From Planctomycetota bacterium (lineage in GTDB: Bacteria; Planctomycetota; UBA8742; UBA2392): a stretch of DNA of 64,000 nt. A program made the translations under genes and the position numbers. A model generated the notes under the pieces. The model saw only the letters and a list, made by a program, of their open reading frames with translations, was not told the origin of the DNA and did no database searches. The DNA lies in NCBI GenBank assembly GCA_022071975.1, contig JAJVIO010000027.1, positions 58,075 through 122,074 of the forward strand, in the 5' to 3' direction. The first letter of the stretch is position 1; the number at the start of each line of letters is the position of its first letter. Below, one piece after another: positions 41,414 to 64,000 of this stretch.

Positions 41414-43636
41414 TCAATCAGGCAGCAACTGCCACTCGGACCCCATGTTGTCGTCCGTCACCAGTTGCAGACCTTCCGTACGGGCGAGGATGGCAGAACG
41501 GGTTTCCATTCCCCACCAGGGCGGGTTCGGCTCGACCAGTGAATCCAGCATACCCATCAGCTTATCGAGCTTTTCCCGGTCGGCGTCACGTTGCAGGTCC
41601 AGCACCGGCTCGCCATCGATCCGCATGTTCAGCAGCGCGCGGCGCCAGCGTTCGCGGCTCGGCAGCAGCGGCCGGTCGCTGACCAGAACGTTGTTGATGA
41701 TGCGCACAACGTGAGGGTAGACCTCGCAGGCGGTGCGCTGCACCCGTGCGGAATCAGTGGTGTTGTAGAGCGCCATGCCGCCCGGTTTCAAGTGCTCGCG
41801 CATCAGCTGCAGGAACTCGACCGAAAGCAGGTTCGTGGCATGCCCGCGCCAGTGCCAGGTGGTGTTCATTACGATCAGGTCGAACTTGCGGTCTGGATTG
41901 CGGTTCAACCAGCGGCGGCCGTCGTCTATCTCAATGGTCACCTTGGGATTGTTCAGCAGGCTTTGCACGCTGGGCTCAAGGCCGATCAACTCGACGTAAC
42001 CGGGGTTGATCTCGATTACCGTCAGGTGCTCCACGCCCGGAAGGTTGGCCACCACCTGCGCCCATGAGCCCGAAGACAGCCCGATCATCATTACATCTCG
42101 CGGTGTCTCCGTGAATGCGGCCAACGCGAACGGCCGCACGATCAGGTTGCGGTCGTTGACCAGGTCGTGGCTGAAAACGCCGTCGTACATGCCGCCGCCG
42201 TAGATGCGGCGGTCCTGGGTCACGGTAATCACGCCATGGCGATTCTCGACCACGTGCGCGAAAGGCTCGGACGGGTCCGGTTTGTCAAACACCTGCAGGC
42301 GGTGCCACAGGCCGTCAAACAGCCAGCCGGAAATCGCCACCACCAGCACCACCGACACGCCGACCGCGGCCAGGTGCCGCAGCCGCAAGGTTTTCGGCGT
42401 GTCGGCCAGGAACGCCAGTCCGCCCGCGAGCATCAGGCCCAGCATCGTCAGCAGCACGCTGGTCCATTGCAGGCTCAGTACGTCCAGCAGGACGAAGCCG
42501 GTTACCAGGCTGCCCGAGGCCGAGCCGATGATGTTAGCCAGGTACAGGTAACTCATGCCCGCGCCGGCTTTGGCGTCCGGCGCGACACCGTAGTGGCAAA
42601 TCAGCGGGAAGGTCGCGCCAAGCAGCCCGGCCGAGATGGTCACCAGCGGCAGCAGGAACGGGTAAGGCAGAAAAGTGGCCAGCCAGCTCGATACCGGTGC
42701 GACCAGGAAGCTGGCAAGCGTGGCGGCCAGCGCAAAGCCGGCCAGTGCACGAAGACCTTGGCCCTTCACGTCCGAGGTGCAGAAGCGCCGCGCGAACAAT
42801 GACCCCAGCGCGATGCCCAGCAGGAACGAACCCAGCACGGCGGCAAACGCAATGGCGTGGCCGCCCGTCGTGAACGAGTGCACCCGAAACCACACGATTT
42901 CATAGGACAGCGAAACGAAGCCCGTCAGCCCGACCAGCACCGCCGCCAGCAGGAAGCGCTTGCGGGAGAAACCGCCGACAGCGGCTTGTGCCGCTTCCTC
43001 CGGCGGCGGGGTTTTGTGCCGCATACCGGCCAGGAACGCGCCGCCCGCGACCAGCATGTTCAATAACGCTGCCAGCGAAACCGCGCCCTGCATGCCGAAC
43101 ACCCGCATGATGAACAGCGCAACGGCAAAGCACGCCGCCGCCGAGCCGAACGTGTTAACGAAGTACAGCAGGCCCACCGCGCGCCCCACGTTGCCGGTAT
43201 GGCGCACCAGGTGCGAAACGAGGATCGGCAGAGTCGCACCCATCAGCAGCGTGGGCACCAGCACCAGGCCGAAGGTCAGCATGCCGGTCACCCACACGCC
43301 GGCGCCCAGCGTCGCCTTGCCGACGGAGTCAAAGATCTCGAGCGAAAAATAGCCGTACGCGCCGATGCCGAGCTCGACGACGCCGAACACCGTGAGCAAC
43401 GGGATGCGGCGCAGCCGCGAAATCGCGCCGCCTGCCAGGCTGCCCAGCCCCAGGCCCAACATAAACGCCGTCACCACAACCGTGACCGACTCCACGTTGA
43501 TGCCGTAGATCGCGAACAAGGAGCGCTGCCAGACAAGCTGGTAAATCAGCGCAGGGAAGCCTGAGAAGAAGAAGATCGTGCAGATCACCGGCAGGCTGAT
43601 GCTGCTTCGAGCTTGTGGAGAATCGTCGGTGCCCAT
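41414..43636 (-). CDS. Polytopic membrane protein fused to spermidine-synthase-like methyltransferase fold domain
   Basis: About 12 hydrophobic helices then IGLSSGSWAQVVANLPGVEHLTVIEINPGYVELIG...VTIEIDDGRRWL...FDLIVMNTTWHWRGHATNLLSVEFLQL. Confidence 0.88.
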   Translation of the reverse strand: MGTDDSPQARSSISLPVICTIFFFSGFPALIYQLVWQRSLFAIYGINVESVTVVVTAFMLGLGLGSLAGGAISRLRRIPLLTVFGVVELGIGAYGYFSLEIFDSVGKATLGAGVWVTGMLTFGLVLVPTLLMGATLPILVSHLVRHTGNVGRAVGLLYFVNTFGSAAACFAVALFIMRVFGMQGAVSLAALLNMLVAGGAFLAGMRHKTPPPEEAAQAAVGGFSRKRFLLAAVLVGLTGFVSLSYEIVWFRVHSFTTGGHAIAFAAVLGSFLLGIALGSLFARRFCTSDVKGQGLRALAGFALAATLASFLVAPVSSWLATFLPYPFLLPLVTISAGLLGATFPLICHYGVAPDAKAGAGMSYLYLANIIGSASGSLVTGFVLLDVLSLQWTSVLLTMLGLMLAGGLAFLADTPKTLRLRHLAAVGVSVVLVVAISGWLFDGLWHRLQVFDKPDPSEPFAHVVENRHGVITVTQDRRIYGGGMYDGVFSHDLVNDRNLIVRPFALAAFTETPRDVMMIGLSSGSWAQVVANLPGVEHLTVIEINPGYVELIGLEPSVQSLLNNPKVTIEIDDGRRWLNRNPDRKFDLIVMNTTWHWRGHATNLLSVEFLQLMREHLKPGGMALYNTTDSARVQRTACEVYPHVVRIINNVLVSDRPLLPSRERWRRALLNMRIDGEPVLDLQRDADREKLDKLMGMLDSLVEPNPPWWGMETRSAILARTEGLQLVTDDNMGSEWQLLPD

Positions 43637-43698
43637 GAAAGCCGACAATGCCCGCGTGAAGAATCTTCGTAAAGAAGGTGCATTGTCGGGTGGATCAT

Positions 43699-43730
43699 CC
43701 GTATTACACTGCAGCAAGAACGTAATACGG
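43699..43730. promoter_or_regulatory. NikR box CCGTATTAC-N14-GTAATACGG
   Basis: 9-bp perfect inverted arms just upstream of nikR, same spacing class as GTATGA-N16-TCATAC. Confidence 0.88.
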
Positions 43731-43736
43731 ATTTCC

Positions 43737-44174
43737 ATGTCGGACCTCGTACGAGTCAGCATATCCCTGGAAGCATCCCTCGCGGCCGAGCTGGATCGCC
43801 TGGTGGAGACTTCGCGCTACGAGAACCGCTCCGAATACGTGCGCGACCTGATCCGCGAGCAGCTGGTCAGCGAAGAGTGGGAGCAGGGGCGCGAAGTGCT
43901 GGGCACCATCACCCTGATCTACGACCACCACCAGGGCGGGCTCAGTGACAAGCTGAACGGCCTGCAGCACGACCACCACGCCAACGTGCTGGCCAGCACC
44001 CATGTGCATCTTGATCACGGCACATGCGCCGAAATGATCATGCTGCGCGGCAAGCCGGAGATTCTGCGCGAACTCACCGACGGCATGCGGCGGCTGAAGG
44101 GCGTTCTGCACGCGGCCTTCGCCCTGAGCTCGACGGGCAAAACTCTGCAACGCGGAGGGCACCGCCATGCATGA
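43737..44174 (+). CDS. nikR: Nickel-responsive regulator NikR
   Basis: RVSISLEASLAAELDRLVETSRYENRSEYVRDLIREQL RHH domain; Ni-site HHQ...HVHLDHGTCAEMI. Confidence 0.95.
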   Translation: MSDLVRVSISLEASLAAELDRLVETSRYENRSEYVRDLIREQLVSEEWEQGREVLGTITLIYDHHQGGLSDKLNGLQHDHHANVLASTHVHLDHGTCAEMIMLRGKPEILRELTDGMRRLKGVLHAAFALSSTGKTLQRGGHRHA

Positions 44175-48860: not shown

Positions 48861-50054
48861 CTAAGTCCCAGGCTGCTTGGCCTTCTCCTTGGCGCGCTTG
48901 GGCTTGGGTTCCGGCCAGTGCTGTGCGGGGAACAACGTCTTCATCGCGAGCAGTTTGCCGTAGCAAAGCAGCCGGTCGCCGCTGAGGATCTCTCGCGTGT
49001 TGCGCGGGTTGGGGATGGTCTGGCTTTCACGCATGATGCTGAGAACCAGGATGTCCTGGTCGCGCAAACCGCTCTCCTTGATGGATTTTCCGACTAGCGG
49101 TGATTCCGGCCCGATGGGAACTTCCGCCACGCCATAGCCGCGATCAAGCGTCAACCTCTGCCGGATGTCCAGGTCGGGAAACAACACCTGTTCCTCGACG
49201 TGCTTGATCATCTCGCCGGCGATGTCAACGCCCGTGGCGGTCTCGATGCCTTCCAGCCCCGGCGAGCTGTTCACTTCCATCACCTGCGGGCCTTCATTGC
49301 TTTCCAGCATGTCCACGCCCGCCACGCGCAGGCCCAGGATCTGCGCCGCCATCACGGCCGTGCGCTCGTACTCGGGCTCGAGTTGCACGGGTACCGCCAC
49401 GCCGCCACGGTGCACGTTGCTGCGGAACTCTGTGCCCTGCGCACTGCGGCGCATGGCCGCCACGACGCGGCCGCCGACCACGAACGCGCGCACGTCACGG
49501 CCGCGGCTTTCTTCCACGAAGTTCTGGATCAGCACGTTCTGCTTCGTGCTCTGGAGCGTTTCGACAATCGCCTCGGCGATCTTGCTGGTGTCGGCCAGGA
49601 TCACGCCGATGCCCTGGGTTCCCTCCAGCAGCTTGATGATCACCGGCGCGCCGCCGACGCGCTCGATGGCCGGCATCACGCTGGAGCGCTGGCGCACGAA
49701 AGCGGTCTTGGGAATGCCGATGTTGTGGCGGCTGAGAATCTGGAAGGCCCGCAGCTTGTCGCGGCTGGTGGCGATGGAGCTGCTGGTGTTCAGGCAGAAC
49801 ACGCCCATCTGTTCGTACTGGCGCACCACGGCCGTGCCGAAGAAGGTGATACTGGCGCCGATGCGCGGGATGATGGCGTCGAAGTTCTCGACGCGTTTTT
49901 CGCGGTACCAGACGTGGGGGTTCTTCTTCTCGACATCGAGCGAGAACTTGAGCGGGTCAAGCACGCGAACCTTGTGGCCGCGCGCTTCGGCGGCTTCACG
50001 GATGCGCCGCGTGCTGTACAGCCGCGGGCCCTGCGAGAGAATTGCGATTTTCAT
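48861..50054 (-). CDS. rimK: RimK-type ATP-grasp ligase fused to C-terminal RCK_C/TrkA_C-like domain
   Basis: MKIAILSQGPRLYSTRRIREAAEARGHKVRVLDPL..., QNFVEESRGRDVRAFVVGG, VDMLESNEGPQVMEVNSSPGLEGIE; C-term ESPLVGKSIKESGLRDQDILVLSIMRES..ILSGDRLLCYG. Confidence 0.88.
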   Translation of the reverse strand: MKIAILSQGPRLYSTRRIREAAEARGHKVRVLDPLKFSLDVEKKNPHVWYREKRVENFDAIIPRIGASITFFGTAVVRQYEQMGVFCLNTSSSIATSRDKLRAFQILSRHNIGIPKTAFVRQRSSVMPAIERVGGAPVIIKLLEGTQGIGVILADTSKIAEAIVETLQSTKQNVLIQNFVEESRGRDVRAFVVGGRVVAAMRRSAQGTEFRSNVHRGGVAVPVQLEPEYERTAVMAAQILGLRVAGVDMLESNEGPQVMEVNSSPGLEGIETATGVDIAGEMIKHVEEQVLFPDLDIRQRLTLDRGYGVAEVPIGPESPLVGKSIKESGLRDQDILVLSIMRESQTIPNPRNTREILSGDRLLCYGKLLAMKTLFPAQHWPEPKPKRAKEKAKQPGT

Positions 50055-51835: not shown

Positions 51836-53488
51836 TTACCCGATATTCATGGTCATCAGGAACTCGGCGTTGCTGCCGGTCTTCTTGAGCTTCTCTTTCA
51901 GCAGTTCCATGGCCTCGATCGGATTCATGTCGTTCAGGATGCGGCGCAGGACCCACATGCGCTTCTGCTCTTCGGGGTCCAGCAGCAGCTCTTCTTTTCG
52001 TGTGCCGGAGCGCGTGACGTCGATGGCCGGGTAGACGCGGCGGTCGGCCAGGCGGCGGTCCAGGTGCAACTCGGCGTTGCCGGTGCCCTTGAACTCTTCG
52101 AAGATCACTTCGTCCATCCTTGAGCCCGTGTCGATCAGCGCGGTCGAGATGATCGTCAGCGAGCCGCCTTCTTCAATGTTGCGCGCCGCGCCGAAGAAGC
52201 GCTTGGGGCGCTGCAGGGCGCTGGCGTCCACACCGCCGGTCAGGATCTTGCCCGAGTGCGGCTGCTCGGCGTTGTATGCACGGCCGAGGCGCGTGATGCT
52301 GTCCAGCAGGATCACCACGTCCACCTTATGCTCGACCAGGCGCTTGGCTTTGCCCAGCACCATTTCGGTGACCTGCACGTGGCGGCTGGTGGGCTCGTCG
52401 AACGTGGAGGCGATAACTTCCGCATCCACGGTGCGCTCCATGTCCGTCACTTCTTCGGGGCGCTCGTCGATCAGCAGAACGATCACGTAGACGTCCGGGT
52501 GATTGGCGCGGATCGCGTTGGCGATCTTCTGCAGAATCACCGTTTTGCCCGTGCGCGGCGGCGCCACGATCAGGCCGCGCTGGCCGCGGCCGATGGGCGT
52601 GACCAGGTCGATGATGCGCAGGTTGAGGTCGTTCTTGACCTCCAGGAAGATGCGCTTGTCGGGGTAGAGCGGCGTGAGTTCGTCAAAGGGCACGACCTCG
52701 GCCAGCTTGTTGGGGTCTTCGCCGTTGACCTTCTCAACCTTCAGCAGCGCGAAGTAGCGCTCGTTGTCCTTGGGCGGGCGGATCTGGCCGGCTACTACGT
52801 GGCCTGACTTCAAGCCGAAACGGCGGATCTGGCTGGGGCTGACGTAAATGTCGTCGGGGCTGGGCAGGTAGTTGTAGTCGGGGCTGCGCAGGAAGCCGAA
52901 GCCTTCGTTCAGCACTTCCATGACGCCTTCGCCGCTGATCACCGCGCCGCGCTTCACGCGGTCTTTCAGCAGCTGGAAGATCAGGTCCTGCTTCTTCAGC
53001 CCGGTCACGTCCTGCATGCCCAGCTTGCGCACTTCGCGCTGCAGGTTCTCCATCTTCATCTTCTGAAGGTCGTTCAGGTTGACGAAGAAAGGCTCGCGCG
53101 GCGGCTGGGGCTGGGCCGGGGCGGCTTCGGCCTCGGTGGTGGGGGGCTGCTCGGTGACTTCCGACTCGCCGTTGTCTTCAGTGACCACGGGGGGCAGGGG
53201 CGCTTCAGCCTTGGCGGCCGCCATGGCGGCCGCGGTTTCGTCATCGACCGCGACGTAGCCGGGGGCCTCGTTGCCGCCGGCAATTTCGTGGGCGCGGCCT
53301 TCGGCCTCTTCTTTCTCGCGGCGCGCCTCCATGCGGGCCATTTCGGCCTGGCGGGCGAACTCTTCGTGCATCACGTCGGTCTGGCCCTTCTTGCCGCCGC
53401 CGGGTTTACGCCGACCGCCACCGCCGCCGCGATTGTTGTTACGGCCGCGGCCGCGCTTACGAGGTGCTGACTTTCCTTCGGGTGTCAT
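51836..53488 (-). CDS. rho: Transcription termination factor Rho with long low-complexity N-terminus
   Basis: [58 protein letters not shown]. Confidence 0.97.
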
Positions 53489-53602: not shown

Positions 53603-54220
53603 TTAGTGGCCCCCGGCGGCCGGTTCGATGTGAGATTGCCAGATTTCCTCTACCTGGCGGTCCAAGTCTTCGAGCGTGCCCGTGTTGTTGATGATCACGT
53701 CGGCGCGCTGCTTCTTTTCAGAGAGGCTCAACTGTCCGGCCTGGCGGGCCGCTACCTGGCCCTTGGCCCAGCCGCGCTCCTGGATGGCGCGTTGTTCGCG
53801 GGATGCTTCATCTGCTTCAACGTAAACCAGCAGAGAATACTTCCCCTCGTAAGCGCCCGACTCCAGCAGCAGGCTGACATCCAGCACCACCGCCTTCACC
53901 TTGGGATCGTTGAGTCCAGCCTCGATTTTCGCCTGTGTGCGTTGCCGGATGCGGGGGTGGGTGATGGCATTCAGTGTAGCCAGTTTTGCGGCGTTGCCAA
54001 AGACCTCGGCACCCAATTTCGCCCGGTCAACTTCTCCTTGCCCGTTGAAGACGCCCGCACCGAAGGCGTCTTGAATCTCTTTCTTCACGGCCGGGTCCCG
54101 CAGGACCGCATGGCCTTCTTTGTCCGCGTCCACGGCCAATGCGCCGCGCTTTTCGAAGGCTTTTGCCACAGCCGACTTGCCGCTGGCGACACCGCCGACC
54201 AAGGCGATGACCGGCTTCAC
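53603..54220 (-). CDS. coaE: Dephospho-CoA kinase
   Basis: VKPVIALVGGVASGKSAVAKAFEKRGALAVDADKEGHAVL. Confidence 0.88.
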   Translation of the reverse strand: MKPVIALVGGVASGKSAVAKAFEKRGALAVDADKEGHAVLRDPAVKKEIQDAFGAGVFNGQGEVDRAKLGAEVFGNAAKLATLNAITHPRIRQRTQAKIEAGLNDPKVKAVVLDVSLLLESGAYEGKYSLLVYVEADEASREQRAIQERGWAKGQVAARQAGQLSLSEKKQRADVIINNTGTLEDLDRQVEEIWQSHIEPAAGGH

Positions 54221-54230
54221 GGCTGCGCCC

Positions 54231-54320
54231 AATTCAAAATGCAAAATGAAAAATGCAAAAGGCCATGCTGCTGCGGTGGACGCCCTTCATTTTGAATTTT
54301 GCATTTTGAATTTTGCATTG
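54231..54320. repeat. AT-rich inverted/direct repeat of CAAAATGCAAAATT-type unit
   Basis: aattcaaaatgcaaaatgaaaaatgcaaaa ... ttcattttgaattttgcattttgaattttgcattg. Confidence 0.85.
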
Positions 54321-54323
54321 CCG

Positions 54324-55724
54324 TCACTTGCCCATGTCGCCCGCGTTCCAGTCAATCAGCGGCTTGAACTCCGGCGCCTGCGTCTCCGGCTTGCCGGTCG
54401 CGCCGGCCAGCAGCTTGATGGCCGCGGCCTTGGCGGCGCGGCGCCGGTCGCCGTCGGTCACGCCCTGGGTGATGACCTCGAAGGTCAGCAGCTCGTTGCC
54501 GGCCTTGAGCACTCCCAGCAGGTTGTTTTCTGAGCTGCTGTCGTCGTAGTCGAAGACCACGATGGGCAGCTTTGCGTCCTGCGGTACGTAGCCCGTTGAG
54601 AACCTGGCGCTGGGCACTTTCAACCGGCGGTTGAAGGTGGTGTCGCGCCTTAGGCGCGCGCGCAGGTCCCCCTCGGTTTCAGCTTCTTTCAGCCTGCGGA
54701 TCAGGATCCAGGGCTTGGCGCCTTCGCCGTCAATCTGGATGGTTGAGTCGCCGCCGATCTTGCGGACGAGTTGGCCATTTTCGATTGGAAGCTGAAGGGT
54801 GCCGTCGGGAAACCGCAAGGTCCCCCGGAGCTGCTCCTCGAGCGAGCTGGAACATTTATGCTTTGGCGAGCCCTCAAGCGCAAGCTCCCGCTTGATGGAA
54901 ATGCCAGCGAGGATTGAAGAGAGTTCCACCAGTAGGCCCTTGTCGTTGAGCCGGGCCGTCGATTTCTCACCAAGAACTTCAGCGACGATGGTCAGGCTTG
55001 CCGTCCTGCCTCTTATGTTCCTGGCGAAATAGAGTGCCGGGACTGGCGCAGACGGCGCACTTCCGGCACCAAACACCATTGCGATCTCAACTCCAGCCTG
55101 ATTCGATTCAGCGGGCACGGAGTGCAGCCAATCCTTCTCCTCCCATTCGTTAACTCCTGGCAAGCCGACTTTCCGCCGCTGAATCGCAAGGCCCTCAACA
55201 GCTTGTTTCGCATCCGTTGGGGACGCGATAGCAACGCTGACTGGCGTTCCATCAGGCAAGTCGATTGCCATCAACTCCGTGCCGTACCAGTCCACTGGCC
55301 ACAGTTTGCTGCCTTTAGGCAAATCGAACTGCAACAGCACCTGCTCGTCGGAACCCTTGGGGGCGAGTCTTAGCCGCCGCTTCTGGTCGCGGTCGAGCCC
55401 TTCAAAATACTCCGGGTACTCAAGCTGGTCCTGGGGCACGAACGACAGCCACTCGATCCCCGCCTGCCTGCCGATGTCCAGGAAATCCGACTGCGCCTCC
55501 CGCGGCCGCCACTGGTCGCGGTGTTCTTCGACTTCCTCGTGGTCTTCGCCGTCCTCGTGCGTGTGCCCGTGGGAGTTGCATGCGGTCAGTAGCAGGGCCA
55601 GCAGCACGAACGGGAGCGCAGGCTTCCAGCCTGCATTGCCTGCCGGCATCCTGCCGGCAGGGCCGTCGGCGGGACGCCGACGGCGAATGCAGGCAAGATG
55701 CCTGCGCTCCGTTTCAGTACCCAT
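54324..55724 (-). CDS. Hypothetical lipoprotein with REP-derived N-terminal extension and His/Glu-rich segment
   Basis: MGTETERRHLACIRRRRPADGPAGRMPAGNAGWKPALPFVLLALLLTACNSHGHTHEDGEDHEE; start overlaps polA stop. Confidence 0.65.
   Translation of the reverse strand: MGTETERRHLACIRRRRPADGPAGRMPAGNAGWKPALPFVLLALLLTACNSHGHTHEDGEDHEEVEEHRDQWRPREAQSDFLDIGRQAGIEWLSFVPQDQLEYPEYFEGLDRDQKRRLRLAPKGSDEQVLLQFDLPKGSKLWPVDWYGTELMAIDLPDGTPVSVAIASPTDAKQAVEGLAIQRRKVGLPGVNEWEEKDWLHSVPAESNQAGVEIAMVFGAGSAPSAPVPALYFARNIRGRTASLTIVAEVLGEKSTARLNDKGLLVELSSILAGISIKRELALEGSPKHKCSSSLEEQLRGTLRFPDGTLQLPIENGQLVRKIGGDSTIQIDGEGAKPWILIRRLKEAETEGDLRARLRRDTTFNRRLKVPSARFSTGYVPQDAKLPIVVFDYDDSSSENNLLGVLKAGNELLTFEVITQGVTDGDRRRAAKAAAIKLLAGATGKPETQAPEFKPLIDWNAGDMGK
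55614..55709. repeat. Cloverleaf-like REP element, 96 bp
   Basis: Outer arms gagcgcaggc/gcctgcgctc; inner hairpins gcaggc-ttcca-gcctgc, tgccggca-tcc-tgccggca, gccgtcggcg-gga-cgccgacggc. Confidence 0.9.
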
Positions 55725-58528
55725 TACTTCGCCTCCAGCCAGTTGTCGCCGATGCCGGCGTCTACATCCAGCGGCACTTTCAGCTTCATGGCCTTGCTCA
55801 TCACCTCTCGGGCGAACTCGGCGCACTTTTTGGCTTCTTTCTCGGGCGCCTCGAACACCAGCTCGTCGTGAACTTGCAGCAGCATGCGCCAGGGCAGCTT
55901 CTGCTTCTCGATCTGCCGGTGCGCGTCCAGCATGGCCTGCTTGATCAAATCCGCGGCCGTGCCCTGCAGCACCGTGTTGAACGCCTGGCGCTCGGCCTGT
56001 TTGCGCACCATCACGTTGCGGCTGCCGATCTCCGGCAGATAGCGCTTTCGGCCGGCGAGCGTCTTCACATAGCCCTGTTTGCGGCACTCCTCAAGCACTT
56101 CGTCATTCAGCTTCGCCACGCGCGGGTGCGAGTTGAAGTAGTTGTCGATGAACTCCTTGGCCTCGCCGCGCGAAATGCCCAGGCCCTGCGACAGGCCGAA
56201 AGCGCTCTGGCCGTACAGCACGGCGTAGTTCACGGTCTTGGCCACGTTGCGCTGGTGGGTGGTGACGTCTTCGGCCTTCACGCCGAAGATGCCGGCCGCG
56301 GTGGCCTTGTGAATGTCCACGCCGTCCTTGAAGGCGGCGATCATGTGCCTCTCGTCCGCGATGTGGGCCAGCAGCCGCAGCTCGATCTGGCTGTAGTCGG
56401 CGCTGATCAGCTTGCAACCCTCGGCCGCGATGAACGCGCGGCGGATCTTCTTGCCGTCCTCAGTGCGCACCGGGATGTTCTGCAGGTTGGGGTCCTTGCT
56501 GCTGAGGCGGCCGGTGGCGACGGTCTGGCGGTAGGTCGTGTGCACGCGGTCGTCGGCATCGGCCAGGCCGGGCAGCGCGTCCACGTAGGTGGACTTGAGC
56601 TTGGACAAGTGCCGCCACTCCAGCACCTTGGCCGGCAACTCGTGCATGGGCGCCAGGATTTCCAGCGTGGACTGGTCAGTGCTGCGGCCGGTGCCCTTTG
56701 CGGTGCGGCCTTGCACGGGCAGCTTGAGCTCATCGAACAACACCTCACCAAGCTGCTTGGGCGAGCCGATGGCGAACTCGTGGCCGGCCAGCTTGTGGCA
56801 TTCTTTCTCGAGGCGCTCGATGTCTTTTTCCATCTCCTTGGCGAGCTTGCCGAGGTAGGGCTTGTCGATGCGGATGCCGCGGTGCTCCATGCGGCCGAGC
56901 ACCTCGATCAGCGGGAACTCGAGATTGTTGGCCAGGTCTTCGAGTTCGAGTTGCTTGAGCTGGGGCGTGAGGGCGTCGCTGACGCGCAGGGCGTAGTCGG
57001 CGTACTGGGCTGCGTACTGCATGACGCGCTCGGGCTCGGCCTCGTGCAGGCTGACGCGGGCCTTCTTTTCGCCGAACAGCTTGTCGAGATTAACGGTGTC
57101 GAGCCCCAGGTACTCGCGGCACAGGCTGTCCAGGCGCGCGTCTTCTCTTGACCCGTCAAGCAGGAAGGCGACCAGCTTGGTGTCGCTCTCGATGCCCTGG
57201 ATCTCGCAGTCTTCCTTCAGCAGCAGGCGCAGGTCGTGTTTGAGGTCGTGCCCGATCTTGCCCACCTTGGGGTCGGCCAGCACGCCACCCAGCGCTTTCA
57301 GCACTTCGCCGCGATCCAGCGAGTTGCTGTTCAGGGGCAGGTACCAGGCCTTGCCCGGCTGGGTCGCCACGGCGATGCCGGCCAGGTTGGCGTACTCCTC
57401 GGCCGCGCAGTGGATGGCGAGGCGTTTGGCTTTGGCGGTCGCCTTGCGGAAGGCCTCGAAGGCTTTTTCGTCGTTGACCAGCGTGTAGTCAGCGCCGGCC
57501 GCGATCAGCGTCTTGTCGATTTCCGGTGCCTGCTGGGCGGGCACGTCGCCGAACAGGCTGGTCTGGGCGCCTTTGGTTCGTTTTGGAGCAGTTTCGGTCT
57601 CGGAGCGTTTACCCGTCGCTGGCGCTCCGGGCTCCTGTTCACTGGTTTCGCCTGCGGGAACCATTTCGTCGCCCCAGCCGAAGTCCGTAGCGACTGATTT
57701 AAAGTTCAGCTCGCTGAGCAGGGGCAGCAGCAGTTCTTTTTTCGGCTCGTGGTACTTGGCCGCCTTCTTGTCGAGCTTCACCCCCGGCACGTCGGTCTTG
57801 ATGGTGACCAGTTGCCGGCTGAGCGCGGCATCCTCGCGGAAGGCGATCAGGTTTTCGCGGCGCTTGGGTTGCTTGATTTCCTCGGCCTTCTTGAGCACTT
57901 CATCCATGCTGCCGTACTGCTGGATCAGCTCCGCGGCGGTCTTGATGCCGATCCCCTTGGCGCCCGGGATGTTGTCCACACTGTCGCCGGCCAGGGCCTG
58001 GATGTCGATGAACTGCGCGGGCGTGACGCCCAGTTCTTCCTTCAGCTGGTCAAGGCCGTACTCGCTGTCGTCGTCGGCGTTGAGCATCCGGATATGGGGC
58101 TCAAGCAGCTGCTTGAGGTCTTTGTCGCGGGTGACCAGCCGCACTTCCACGTTGTGGTGCGCGCTCTGTTTGGCGAGCGTGCCGATCACGTCGTCGGCCT
58201 CGAAGCCGGGCACCTGCACGATGGGGATCTCGAAGGCTTCCACCATCTGCACGATCACCGGGATCTGGTCGCGCAGGTCCTCGGGCATTTCGCCGCGGTT
58301 GGCTTTGTATTCGGGGTAGATCTCGTTGCGAAAGGTGGGCCCTTTGGGGTCCAGCACGCAGATCAGGTAGTCCGGCTTATGCTGCTTGATCAGCTTCTGC
58401 AGCATGCGGGTAAAGATATAGATCGCCCCGACGGCTTTGCCGCGAACGGTACGGCGCCTGGCGGCCGGGCTGTAGTAGGCCCGGAAAATCTGGCTGTGGC
58501 CGTCAATGATGTAGAGAGACTCAGTCAC
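55724..58528 (-). CDS. polA: DNA polymerase I (5'-3' exo, 3'-5' exo-like, polymerase); GTG start
   Basis: VTESLYIIDGHSQIFRAYYS, AGDSVDNIPGAKGIGIKTA, SADYSQIELRLLAHIADE, QRNVAKTVNYAVLYGQSAFGLSQGLGI, LQVHDELVFEAP. Confidence 0.95.
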   Translation of the reverse strand: MTESLYIIDGHSQIFRAYYSPAARRRTVRGKAVGAIYIFTRMLQKLIKQHKPDYLICVLDPKGPTFRNEIYPEYKANRGEMPEDLRDQIPVIVQMVEAFEIPIVQVPGFEADDVIGTLAKQSAHHNVEVRLVTRDKDLKQLLEPHIRMLNADDDSEYGLDQLKEELGVTPAQFIDIQALAGDSVDNIPGAKGIGIKTAAELIQQYGSMDEVLKKAEEIKQPKRRENLIAFREDAALSRQLVTIKTDVPGVKLDKKAAKYHEPKKELLLPLLSELNFKSVATDFGWGDEMVPAGETSEQEPGAPATGKRSETETAPKRTKGAQTSLFGDVPAQQAPEIDKTLIAAGADYTLVNDEKAFEAFRKATAKAKRLAIHCAAEEYANLAGIAVATQPGKAWYLPLNSNSLDRGEVLKALGGVLADPKVGKIGHDLKHDLRLLLKEDCEIQGIESDTKLVAFLLDGSREDARLDSLCREYLGLDTVNLDKLFGEKKARVSLHEAEPERVMQYAAQYADYALRVSDALTPQLKQLELEDLANNLEFPLIEVLGRMEHRGIRIDKPYLGKLAKEMEKDIERLEKECHKLAGHEFAIGSPKQLGEVLFDELKLPVQGRTAKGTGRSTDQSTLEILAPMHELPAKVLEWRHLSKLKSTYVDALPGLADADDRVHTTYRQTVATGRLSSKDPNLQNIPVRTEDGKKIRRAFIAAEGCKLISADYSQIELRLLAHIADERHMIAAFKDGVDIHKATAAGIFGVKAEDVTTHQRNVAKTVNYAVLYGQSAFGLSQGLGISRGEAKEFIDNYFNSHPRVAKLNDEVLEECRKQGYVKTLAGRKRYLPEIGSRNVMVRKQAERQAFNTVLQGTAADLIKQAMLDAHRQIEKQKLPWRMLLQVHDELVFEAPEKEAKKCAEFAREVMSKAMKLKVPLDVDAGIGDNWLEAK
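57148..57159. other. TTGACCCGTCAA site, coding (polA)
   Basis: Direct reading, flanked C/G. Confidence 0.85.
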
Positions 58529-58783: not shown

Positions 58784-60217
58784 TTGTCGCTGATGTCGAG
58801 ATACTCTCGCCGCGGCATGGTCGATCTGATCGTCATGATCGTCATGATCGTGTTCCTGCTTGGTATGGGGACACTCGCCTTCCTTACATACGACAAGGCC
58901 CAGAAGGAAAAGCAGTACCTGGCGGCCTTGCGTGAAATCCCGGCCCGCCAGTCCGCGGAACTGGATTCCGTCAAGGCCCGCTACGCCGAGGTCAGCATGT
59001 ACATCGGCTTCCGGGGCGAAGCGGCCTACAGCTCGCCGGAGGCGATCCAGCAACTGCTGAATGAGGGCAGCCAGGTGGTGGCGGACTATTACGTGGTCGA
59101 CCCGGTGGAAGGCCAGGCCGCGCCGCTGCAGGGCACGCGCTCGACGACCATCAAGGTCCGGCTGTATGACAAGGAGTCGGGCCAGTGGACCGAGAAAGAG
59201 CTGCCCATCTCGCAGGTTGAGGGCACGCGCCGTAACTCGACCAAGATTTATGAGGCACAGGACGTACTGACCATCCAGCACGCGCTGGGCCGCCAGGACG
59301 AAGTGATCAACAGCCTGGTAACCCGCTACATCCCCAACGTGCAGGCGCAGCGCAAGTCCCAAAAGGACGAAAAGGACCGTTCCGCCGGGCGCAAGGCCAG
59401 CGAGTCGTCCAACAAGTACGGCGAAGTCTCGACGGAAATCGAGACCGCCAACTCGGACATGAAGACCAAGCAGGAAGAGGTAGCGAGCTCGGAGCAGCGC
59501 CTGGCCGAGGCGATGAAGAAAGAGAACGAGACCTACCTGAAGCTCGATTCCGACAGTGTGCGCGAGGCCCGGGAAGCGGCGTTTGCCGCCGCGCGTGAGG
59601 CCGCGGTTGCGCGTCGCGAAGCGCGAAAGGCCATGGAAGCGTATCGCCTTCAGTCGGACAAGCGCCGCATCGACGACACCCGCGACCCGGACGGCGCCAT
59701 CTTCCTGGTTGACAAGAAGTCGGGCTACGTGTGGATCAACATCGGCCAGCAGAGCGACGTGCGCAAGAACCAGACCTTCCAGGTGCTGCGCGCCGACGCC
59801 AGCCGCAACAGCGAAGTTCCGATCGGCGAGATCCGGGTCCAGGAAGTGATGCGCGGCAACATCGCGCGCTGCCGCGTGGACGCGCTGGATGACCCCTCCA
59901 CGTACCCGGAGGCCGGCGACATCATCAAGAACCCGAACTTCAGCGACCGCCAGTACTACAGCTGGGCCCTGGTCGGCGAGTTCGGCGGCAGCTTCACCAG
60001 CTTGACCCGGCAGCAGCTCACGGACCTGCTGCGCAGCGTGGGATACCGCGTGACGACGCACATCGACGCCACCACCGACGCGGTGGTCATCGGCGGCAAC
60101 TGGGACAAAGACCCCGAGTTCATCAAGGCGGAAGAACGTCGCCTGAGCTTCGAAAAGTACCCCGAACGGGAAGTGCTCTGGTTCCTGGGCATGATCGGCC
60201 CTGACCAGCAGGAATAG
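58784..60217 (+). CDS. Membrane-anchored coiled-coil protein with FlgT_C/OB-like and BRCT-like C-terminal modules (paralogue A)
   Basis: TM DLIVMIVMIVFLLGMGTLAFL; coiled coil; GYVWINIGQQSDVRKNQTFQVLR; YYSWALVGEFGGSFTSLTRQQLTDLLRSVGYRVTTHIDATTDAVVIGG. Confidence 0.8.
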   Translation: MSLMSRYSRRGMVDLIVMIVMIVFLLGMGTLAFLTYDKAQKEKQYLAALREIPARQSAELDSVKARYAEVSMYIGFRGEAAYSSPEAIQQLLNEGSQVVADYYVVDPVEGQAAPLQGTRSTTIKVRLYDKESGQWTEKELPISQVEGTRRNSTKIYEAQDVLTIQHALGRQDEVINSLVTRYIPNVQAQRKSQKDEKDRSAGRKASESSNKYGEVSTEIETANSDMKTKQEEVASSEQRLAEAMKKENETYLKLDSDSVREAREAAFAAAREAAVARREARKAMEAYRLQSDKRRIDDTRDPDGAIFLVDKKSGYVWINIGQQSDVRKNQTFQVLRADASRNSEVPIGEIRVQEVMRGNIARCRVDALDDPSTYPEAGDIIKNPNFSDRQYYSWALVGEFGGSFTSLTRQQLTDLLRSVGYRVTTHIDATTDAVVIGGNWDKDPEFIKAEERRLSFEKYPEREVLWFLGMIGPDQQE

Positions 60218-60244
60218 TCGCAGAACCGGAGCGAGGAACTACCC

Positions 60245-61882
60245 ATGGCAAAAGACAACAAAGTAGCGGGCTGGTACTGGATCATCTCGGCGATCCTCAC
60301 GCCCTTCGTGCTGATTGCGACGCTTCTGTGGGCCTACTACGCGCAGCAGGTGCAGACCTATCGCGCCGAGGGCACCCGCCTGGTCGCGAAGCTTGAGGCT
60401 GACCACGCGATGTTCGAACCGGTGCTCAACCACATGAAGTCGGTTTCTGAGGTTACCGGCTTCAAGATGGGTGACCCGCTGGGCGGCGTTGACCAGGTCA
60501 AGGGCAGCATCCCCAATCCCACGGCCTTCCAGGGTGAGGAACGCAACCAGCCCCAGGAGAAACGCAGCCCGCTGCTGAACGCCTACATCGACGCGGAAAA
60601 CCGCTTCTACGGCGCTGCCGACGCGGCCGGTTACGTGCATGAATACGCCGCCGCGCGTGAGTGGCTGACTGCCTTTGAGCGTAAACTGCAGCGCTATGTG
60701 TACCTGAAGGGCTATCAGCACTACACGGTCAAGACCATCGACATCGGCGGCGAGAATGTCGCCGTGGCCGCCGGGGACCTGAGCCGTCAGGTGGAATTGA
60801 TCGACAATCTGCCTCAGCCGCCGGAGTCGGCGCTTGAGAGCGCGCTGACCCGCCACGCCAACAACGAGCCGCCGGCTGACAAGGTGATGCAGGAGCCGGT
60901 CAAGATCACCCTTGAGCTGGTGTTCCGCAAGCAGGTGCAGCTGATCCGCGACCTCGTGAGCGCCAATCTGCACCAGTACAACCTGCTGTACGCCGACGTT
61001 TCGGGTGACGTGGACTACGTGGACGCCCAGGGCAACCGCACCCGCATCGCCGTGGGCTTCAAGGGTGAGCGCGACAGCCTGGATAAGATCATCGCGGACC
61101 TGGGCGGCCTCAGCCGCAAGGTCGGAGAGCGCAAGCAGGAAAGCCTGGACAAGCTCGATGACGCCGGCGACATGGCTGAAAACGGAATCACCGAAACCAA
61201 CGCCAAGGAAAACCGCCTGCAGTTCATGGTGGTGGCCAACGACGGCCGTATCGAGGAACTGGCCAACAAGTTCGCCAACGAGAAGCTGACCCACGAGGGT
61301 GACGCCCAGAAGTTCGAAGACCTGGTGCGCAACCTGCCGCGCCTGAAGATCCCGCAGAAGCTTGAGCAGAGCGACCCGGACGGCGAAATCAGCTACAGCG
61401 ACTACAAGCGCGGCGTGGTGCACATCAACCTCGGCCATGCCGACGGCGTGCGCGTGGGCCAGCGCTTTGAGGTGTGGCGCCCGCACGGCTTCGAGAAGGA
61501 CGAGTTCGTGGGCGTGGTGGAAATCGTCCGAATGCTCTCTGAGCACTACAGCCTGTGCACCGTGTTGACCCTGACCGCCACCGAAGACCCGGTGCGCAAG
61601 GCGGACAAGATCGTCAGCCAGTTCTGGCACAACGGCAAGTTCCTCACGGTCGCCCTGCACGGCAGCTATGAGCCGCCCAACGAGGCCTACAGCAAGGAAC
61701 GCCTCACCGAGTTGCTGAAGAACATGGGCGTGAAGGTTGTTGATAAGGTGCAGCCAGGCACTGACCTTGTTGTGCTGGGCAGCAACCTGCTGGGCGACGA
61801 GTGGTATCGCCGTGCCCGCAACGACCTGCGCTTCGAGACTCTGAAAGAAGACGACGTGCGCCTGTACGTCGACCCGAGGTAA
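60245..61882 (+). CDS. Membrane-anchored coiled-coil protein with FlgT_C/OB-like and BRCT-like C-terminal modules (paralogue B)
   Basis: TM WYWIISAILTPFVLIATLLWAYY; GVVHINLGHADGVRVGQRFEVWRPHG; FLTVALHGSYEPPNEAYSKERLTELLKNMGVKVVDKVQPGTDLVVLG. Confidence 0.8.
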   Translation: MAKDNKVAGWYWIISAILTPFVLIATLLWAYYAQQVQTYRAEGTRLVAKLEADHAMFEPVLNHMKSVSEVTGFKMGDPLGGVDQVKGSIPNPTAFQGEERNQPQEKRSPLLNAYIDAENRFYGAADAAGYVHEYAAAREWLTAFERKLQRYVYLKGYQHYTVKTIDIGGENVAVAAGDLSRQVELIDNLPQPPESALESALTRHANNEPPADKVMQEPVKITLELVFRKQVQLIRDLVSANLHQYNLLYADVSGDVDYVDAQGNRTRIAVGFKGERDSLDKIIADLGGLSRKVGERKQESLDKLDDAGDMAENGITETNAKENRLQFMVVANDGRIEELANKFANEKLTHEGDAQKFEDLVRNLPRLKIPQKLEQSDPDGEISYSDYKRGVVHINLGHADGVRVGQRFEVWRPHGFEKDEFVGVVEIVRMLSEHYSLCTVLTLTATEDPVRKADKIVSQFWHNGKFLTVALHGSYEPPNEAYSKERLTELLKNMGVKVVDKVQPGTDLVVLGSNLLGDEWYRRARNDLRFETLKEDDVRLYVDPR

Positions 61883-62515: not shown

Positions 62516-62869
62516 TCAGCCCAGACGCCATTGTCCGTCTACAACCTTCAGGGGACGGTGCCTGAATTCATACTGCACCCCGTTTTTGCGGCAGCGGCGT
62601 CCGGCCTTCTTGTGCCACAGCTCGCCGGCATAGGACGGAAGCGAGTTGCCCCACACACGAATCCAGACGGCGCGTCCCCGTGCGTCCGGATGCTCTTCGG
62701 CCAACCGGCCGGTGGTGATGTAGGCGAGATAACCGCCCACCTTGGCCTCAAGCAGCCGGATGTGTTCGTCCGAGTCTTCCCAGTCCATGTGGTCCGAGAC
62801 CATCAGCGATACGGTGGCGTCATCGTCCCATGCGATGTAGTCGATTTCGTCAGCCTGACGGATGCTCAT
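62516..62869 (-). CDS. Hypothetical protein, DUF6572-like
   Basis: YIAWDDDATVSLMVSDHMDWEDSDEHIRLLEAKVGGYLAYITTGRL; cotranscribed with next gene. Confidence 0.55.
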   Translation of the reverse strand: MSIRQADEIDYIAWDDDATVSLMVSDHMDWEDSDEHIRLLEAKVGGYLAYITTGRLAEEHPDARGRAVWIRVWGNSLPSYAGELWHKKAGRRCRKNGVQYEFRHRPLKVVDGQWRLG

Positions 62870-62915: not shown

Positions 62916-64000
62916 TTACGGACGCAGGCTTTCAATCTGTTCAGTCAGTCGTTCGAGTTCGCGGTTCAGGTCCTTTTTCATTTTCTCCAGGCGGTCGGCG
63001 ATCTTCTCCGAGTCGCGCTTGATGTTGTTGCACCAGCCGCCCATGTCATCAATGTAGTCGATCTGCCGCTGCACGCCGTTGATTGCCTTGTCCACGGCAT
63101 CCCAGTCCACGTCTGCGGACGGGTCGGTTTCGGCGCGCTCGCGTACGGCCAACGCGCGGGCCAGGGTCACCGCCGCGTCGAGGTTCACGTTGCTGCTCTG
63201 GTCTTCGGGGTCCCAGACCACGAGGATGTCGTTTCCTTGACGCGTCAAGGAGTGCCCGAACTCGGCCTGCATCGTTGCGTTGTCGCGCAGGCTGGAGGCT
63301 GCCAACACGAACACGCCTACTTCGGCGCCGCGGTTCCTGCGCGCCTCATCCAGCTCGGCCAGGGCCTTGGCCTTTGTGTAGTTGTCAGCGCGCTTACACT
63401 CGTACACGATCTTCGCGCCGCTTGCGGCCGAGTCGGCACCCAGGGTCTGCACGTGGTCGCCGACCTTGCTGCGCGCGACGAGGCCGGTGGTTTCGCCGAC
63501 GCTTTCGAAAACCTCGTCGCCGTGCATGCGCCCGCGCAGGGCGTCGCCTGCCAGGGCCTCGAAATCGAAGCCGCCGCTCGGGCTGACCGCGCGCTCTTTC
63601 TTCGCGCCCCGCAGCTCTGCCAGCACGCTGGCGACCTCGGTCTGGAACTTGCCCTGGCGCTCGACCAGGTCGTCGATCTGTTTCTTCAGCTTGCCGTGCA
63701 GGTTGCTGAGCGCGCTGTTGTCGGAGTCCAGCGACAGGTCTTTGCGGATCTGCTCCTGCGTATCAACCAGCGCCTTCTTCAGTACACCTAGCGCGGTCTT
63801 TGGGTCGTTGGGGTTGAAGTTGGTTTCGATCTGGGTAATCAGCCGCTTCAGCGCCCCCTGCTCATTGTTCAGGTCGAACTCGCCCAGCACTTTCTTGCCC
63901 TGCTCGTTCAAACGTTCCTCGGCTGCGCGGGCGATGGATTCCACCAGTCCCTTCTTGTTCTCTGGGTCGAGGTGCCGCATCAAGGGGCTGTTTTCGCCGA
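62916..64000 (-). CDS. Coiled-coil protein with PD-(D/E)XK nuclease-like core (RmuC/DUF2130-like); N-terminus may be cut by window edge
   Basis: DFEALAGDALRGR..., KVGDHVQTLG...GAKIVYECKRADNYTKAKALAELDEARRNRGAEVGVFVLA; flanking coiled coils; frame open to window end. Confidence 0.65.
   Translation of the reverse strand, partial: GENSPLMRHLDPENKKGLVESIARAAEERLNEQGKKVLGEFDLNNEQGALKRLITQIETNFNPNDPKTALGVLKKALVDTQEQIRKDLSLDSDNSALSNLHGKLKKQIDDLVERQGKFQTEVASVLAELRGAKKERAVSPSGGFDFEALAGDALRGRMHGDEVFESVGETTGLVARSKVGDHVQTLGADSAASGAKIVYECKRADNYTKAKALAELDEARRNRGAEVGVFVLAASSLRDNATMQAEFGHSLTRQGNDILVVWDPEDQSSNVNLDAAVTLARALAVRERAETDPSADVDWDAVDKAINGVQRQIDYIDDMGGWCNNIKRDSEKIADRLEKMKKDLNRELERLTEQIESLRP
63237..63248. 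other. TTGACGCGTCAA palindrome, coding
   Basis: Direct reading, flanked CC/GG to a 16-bp perfect palindrome. Confidence 0.9.

Follow-up and report, generated by a model that had tools for sequence, protein, structure and literature searches.

Planctomycetota have probably recruited the BRCT domain, a module of intracellular DNA-repair and adaptor proteins, to the periplasm, where, stripped of phosphate recognition, it would form the head of a phylum-wide and often paired envelope tether built on an FlgT_C-type barrel and a helical stalk. Two members of this family, P0001 and P0002, are encoded side by side in the window, the whole 64,000-nucleotide stretch analysed here.

Both open reading frames were confirmed on the same strand. 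P0001 (58793-60217, + strand, 474 aa) is the upstream copy and comprises a signal anchor, a stalk, an FlgT_C-like barrel and a BRCT domain; P0002 (60245-61882, + strand, 545 aa) has the same architecture. For P0001, ATG 58793 was preferred over TTG 58784 because it is preceded at 8 nt by a GGAG and aligns with the starts of orthologues. The genes are separated by 27 nt and a Shine-Dalgarno-like GAGGA (60233-60237, + strand) lies 7 nt upstream of the P0002 start, so they probably form one operon. As proposed in the original prediction, they are tandem paralogues (P0001 used as query against its own genome recovers P0002 at 1.9e-14), and hydropathy places an N-terminal transmembrane anchor in each, at approximately 58826-58891 in P0001, with SRRG just before it, and approximately 60278-60337 in P0002 (both + strand). 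Each also has an additional region between the anchor and the stalk, absent from that prediction. As a separate observation, [RKQ]G immediately precedes the transmembrane segment in 28/52 members (a raw count, without background comparison; for example window 58793-58830), which recalls PilX/TadE-type prepilin peptides. Yet the 25 Pfam families listed for members include no prepilin, and a prepilin-type anchor was therefore set aside as a lead only.

The C-terminal module of the two proteins is firmly predicted to be a BRCT domain from sequence profiles and structural models, with approximate ends at 59942-60214 in P0001, a few residues of which are shared with the barrel range, and at 61628-61879 in P0002 (both + strand). 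Taken as single sequences, they match Pfam BRCT weakly and below threshold (0.015 and 0.0026, respectively). The family profile was decisive: that of the C-terminal module reached the BRCT domain of DNA ligase (LigA) in the PDB at 1.1e-10, that of the BRCT part alone reached LigA 1l7b at 2e-13, and Pfam BRCT was matched by 31 of 55 members (best 7.7e-14). AlphaFold, run on single chains, predicted the beta-alpha-beta-beta-alpha-beta-alpha order of a BRCT fold (E-H-E-E-H-E-H) both within the barrel-BRCT module of P0002 (pLDDT 90.1) and for the P0001 BRCT alone (pLDDT 87.4). The latter was modelled by itself because Foldseek searches with the two-domain model were dominated by barrel matches (F1-ATPase, FlgT); it retrieved chiefly BRCT domains, with DnlJ, RFC1 and XRCC1 at the top and Dbf4 also present.

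Preceding the BRCT domain is a barrel, at 61358-61648 in P0002 and, by homology to it (alignments A1/A4), at 59669-59962 in P0001 (both + strand). Pfam FlgT_C (PF16538) matches P0002 at E=4.3e-4, with 21.1 bits and thus below the curated cut-off of 27. The barrel profile matches TsaP in the PDB at 2e-4, and the P0002 module model matches FlgT 3w1e in Foldseek at 3.4e-4 (prob 1.00, partial coverage). The predicted barrel has the fold of the FlgT C-terminal barrel, SH3-like and of the FlgT_C/TsaP type. Profile searches, AlphaFold and Foldseek therefore uphold the domain reading of the original prediction, FlgT_C-like and BRCT-like modules on membrane-anchored paralogues. No enzyme family was matched in the barrel-BRCT module.

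The stalk, a charged helical segment running from anchor to barrel, is a probable coiled coil as judged by its periodicity. Heptad-like periodicity has p=0.007 and 0.023 in P0001 and P0002, whose longest Pro/Gly-free segments span 82 and 35 residues, and it exceeds shuffles at p<0.05 in 31/52 members, both window proteins included. The long coiled coil originally proposed is accordingly clear across the family but only moderate in the pair itself. Elsewhere on this contig, beyond the window (G000:C7:1407-4083), three tandem minus-strand genes encode short relatives (L167, L168 and L173) and are followed by a trypsin/PDZ protease gene. Two of them consist of a transmembrane segment, a helical stalk and an FlgT_C-like barrel without BRCT, and one is a 214-aa protein with a transmembrane segment and a barrel-like part, indicating that the stalk-barrel theme extends beyond the BRCT-bearing family.

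The barrel-BRCT module is probably extracytoplasmic. The anchor is preceded by a short N-terminal tail, and net charge is more positive on its N-terminal side in 36/53 members, with the opposite in 3/53. Counts of K+R alone are level across the anchor (2.40 vs 2.45), so the positive-inside signal depends on net charge. Together with these N-in-looking anchors, homologues that carry the same module behind other export signals point outside the cytoplasm: two are lipoproteins (L069 and L070, with lipoboxes LLAGC/LVAGC and Ala at +2 in both), and another two, L067 and L068, are LRR proteins that bear signal peptides. In the latter, the module sits between LRR segments. These homologues are few and all within the window's taxonomic family, which counts against the envelope reading.

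In BRCT domains, the phosphate pocket is formed by a Ser/Thr before the invariant Gly and a Lys at the start of helix 2. No family member has the Ser/Thr (0/53), whereas Thr occupies this position in 20/20 LigA BRCTs of the phylum; the helix-2 Lys (GSK) of these LigA domains is not conserved in the family either. By these two features the family falls outside the phosphate-binding BRCTs. Loss of the pocket residues and the extracytoplasmic location both argue against DNA or phosphopeptide binding, which in its canonical form appears unlikely from the sequences.

In planctomycetes the family counts as a core feature and occurs in most of the phylum, 'planctomycete' being meant only in the sense of the phylum searched (a sample of 392 Planctomycetota genomes). 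It is present in about 325/392 genomes, as counted by eye from the table. A raw tally of 390/392 was rejected, since about 67 genomes had no match or nothing better than 1e-13, and 20 of these, when re-examined, contained mostly LigA BRCTs in ~700-residue frames matching over the BRCT part only, and some barrel-only proteins. The distribution of FtsW was considered as a cause of the family-less genomes and was not discriminating. A plasmid search gave no family match. No curated Pfam or NCBIfam model describes the whole protein, and the NCBIfam models that match members most strongly are those for LigA, via the BRCT. The original prediction had named an extracytoplasmic topology with a known family as an argument against itself: the topology does seem to lie outside the cytoplasm, yet the protein as a whole belongs to no known family. 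A search of the open-access literature, with few subscription papers covered, returned nothing relevant on BRCT domains in planctomycetes or in the periplasm.

Paired copies have probably arisen more than once. In the window's class, copies of the P0001 type and of the P0002 type each make up their own clade, and in five further families (f57, f17, f53, f64 and f74) upstream and downstream copies again fall into two separate clades, pointing to tandem duplication, probably at least two times, with both copies retained. Such retention, seen in two lineages or more, would fit a heteromer but is only suggestive of one.

On balance, we lean towards P0001 and P0002 being paralogous, inner-membrane-anchored envelope tethers whose BRCT tip binds a periplasmic or outer-membrane partner. 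The N-terminus would be cytoplasmic and everything beyond the anchor periplasmic; the stalk may oligomerise, as a homomer or as a heteromer with the paralogue, and would keep the barrel-BRCT head at a distance from the membrane. The head could then serve as a scaffold or tether, not as an enzyme or DNA binder, by binding a protein or some other component of the envelope that is located in the periplasm or at the outer membrane. Favouring such a tether are the barrel's kinship with the envelope proteins FlgT and TsaP, the lipoprotein and signal-peptide homologues, the net charge bias, the pocket loss, the lack of any enzyme match, the phylum-wide retention and the keeping of tandem pairs. Against it, the nearest known BRCT relatives are, to our knowledge, all intracellular, and polA neighbours the family in some lineages.

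The gene neighbourhood raises another explanation. In about 27 families, rho-coaE(-polA) is divergent from the family gene followed by tatC and cinA, the identities of these neighbours having been confirmed, and this is the ancestral gene order. In the lineage of the window, polA (DNA polymerase I, 55724-58525, with its true start at about 58525), coaE (53603-54244) and rho (51836-53488), all on the - strand, are kept and tatC is elsewhere; a longer polA frame reaching 60061 is an artefact. Also on the - strand of the window are genes for a DUF6572 protein (62516-62869), a DUF2130/Mrr_cat-like nuclease-domain protein adjoining the pair (62916-63983), a protein with RimK-type ATP-grasp and TrkA_C domains (48861-50054), and a large membrane protein with MFS-like and spermine-synthase-like parts (41414-43762). 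In 30/54 genomes examined, tatC directly follows the family gene, in the same orientation and within 700 bp; such an ancestral operon suggests that the protein could be an accessory of Tat export, working with TatC, for instance on the periplasmic face. We regard this as doubtful: the window's family retains the pair without adjacent tatC, tatC is kept in 13/13 tested genomes without a detected full-length family member, and conservation of cinA, coaE and rho as neighbours is just as strong, so that the arrangement may reflect old gene order only. Moreover, neither P0001 nor P0002 matches TatA/B (MttA_Hcf106) in Pfam, the link to TatC being one of synteny only.

The barrel's matches to FlgT and TsaP, and the PilX-like residues before the anchor, would also suit a role as part or analogue of a ring associated with a secretin or pilus, in which the stalk would extend to a channel in the outer membrane. 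This is unlikely, given that secretin or pilus genes do not recur in the conserved neighbourhood and that prepilins are missing from the members' listed Pfam families. Equally improbable is a cytoplasmic membrane tether for a DNA or repair complex, in which the BRCT, at the membrane, would bind the ends of DNA or the partners LigA/PolA. LigA is indeed the nearest BRCT relative and polA a divergent neighbour in several lineages, but the N-in anchors, the lipoprotein and signal-peptide homologues and the loss of the pocket Ser/Thr in 53/53 members speak against it. Accordingly, of the two functions first suggested, an envelope complex fits, whereas chromosome tethering is disfavoured by the N-in/C-out anchors, the exported homologues and the pocket loss. 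Finally, a cell-shape scaffold in place of or alongside MreC is very unlikely, as the shared membrane-coil-barrel order, weak matches of two members to an MreC model and a common hairpin motif (hhalign probability 74% over 21 columns) are outweighed by the confinement of the likeness to that one 21-residue hairpin and by a separate genuine MreC in 27/31 relatives (the incomplete assembly that contains the window yielded none). Membership in MreC was rejected, its two-barrel family PF04085 being matched neither by P0001 or P0002 nor among the 25 families listed for members.

The planctomycete envelope is unusual and cell division proceeds without FtsZ; the family is an old and widespread envelope candidate in this phylum, with a defined architecture. 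Among the essential proteins of Planctopirus limnophila are 108 that are specific to the phylum and of unknown function (PMC10632474). If the envelope tether does carry its BRCT head in the periplasm, a fold regarded as a hallmark of DNA-damage and adaptor proteins inside the cell is also able to function beyond the cytoplasm, and profile-based annotation, misled by the LigA-like BRCT, can wrongly class such proteins as relatives of DNA ligase.

Among known systems, FlgT of the Vibrio flagellar ring (FlgT_C, PF16538) shares the barrel fold and the motif INxGxxxGVxxGxxF with the family (the Pfam score of P0002 staying under the curated cut-off), and lacks a comparable stalk and a BRCT. TsaP, a type IV pilus secretin-associated protein with LysM and FlgT_C-like domains, is matched by the barrel profile; the family has no LysM, is anchored by a transmembrane segment, has an added BRCT and a conserved neighbourhood without secretin. 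MreC shares the order of transmembrane segment, coil and barrel together with the 21-residue hairpin, and has no BRCT. A BRCT role remote from DNA repair has a precedent in Chs5 of the fungal exomer, which acts in membrane cargo trafficking (PMC6057913) and was matched by the P0001 BRCT model in Foldseek (4yg8); Chs5 is, however, eukaryotic and cytosolic, and has only the BRCT fold in common with the planctomycete family. The nearest BRCT (PF00533) is the C-terminal one of the NAD+-dependent DNA ligase LigA, alike in fold and sequence profile. In contrast to it, the family domain has neither a Ser/Thr ahead of the invariant Gly nor the GSK Lys, its beta1-alpha1 loop is longer, and it is carried on a membrane-anchored stalk, probably outside the cytoplasm.
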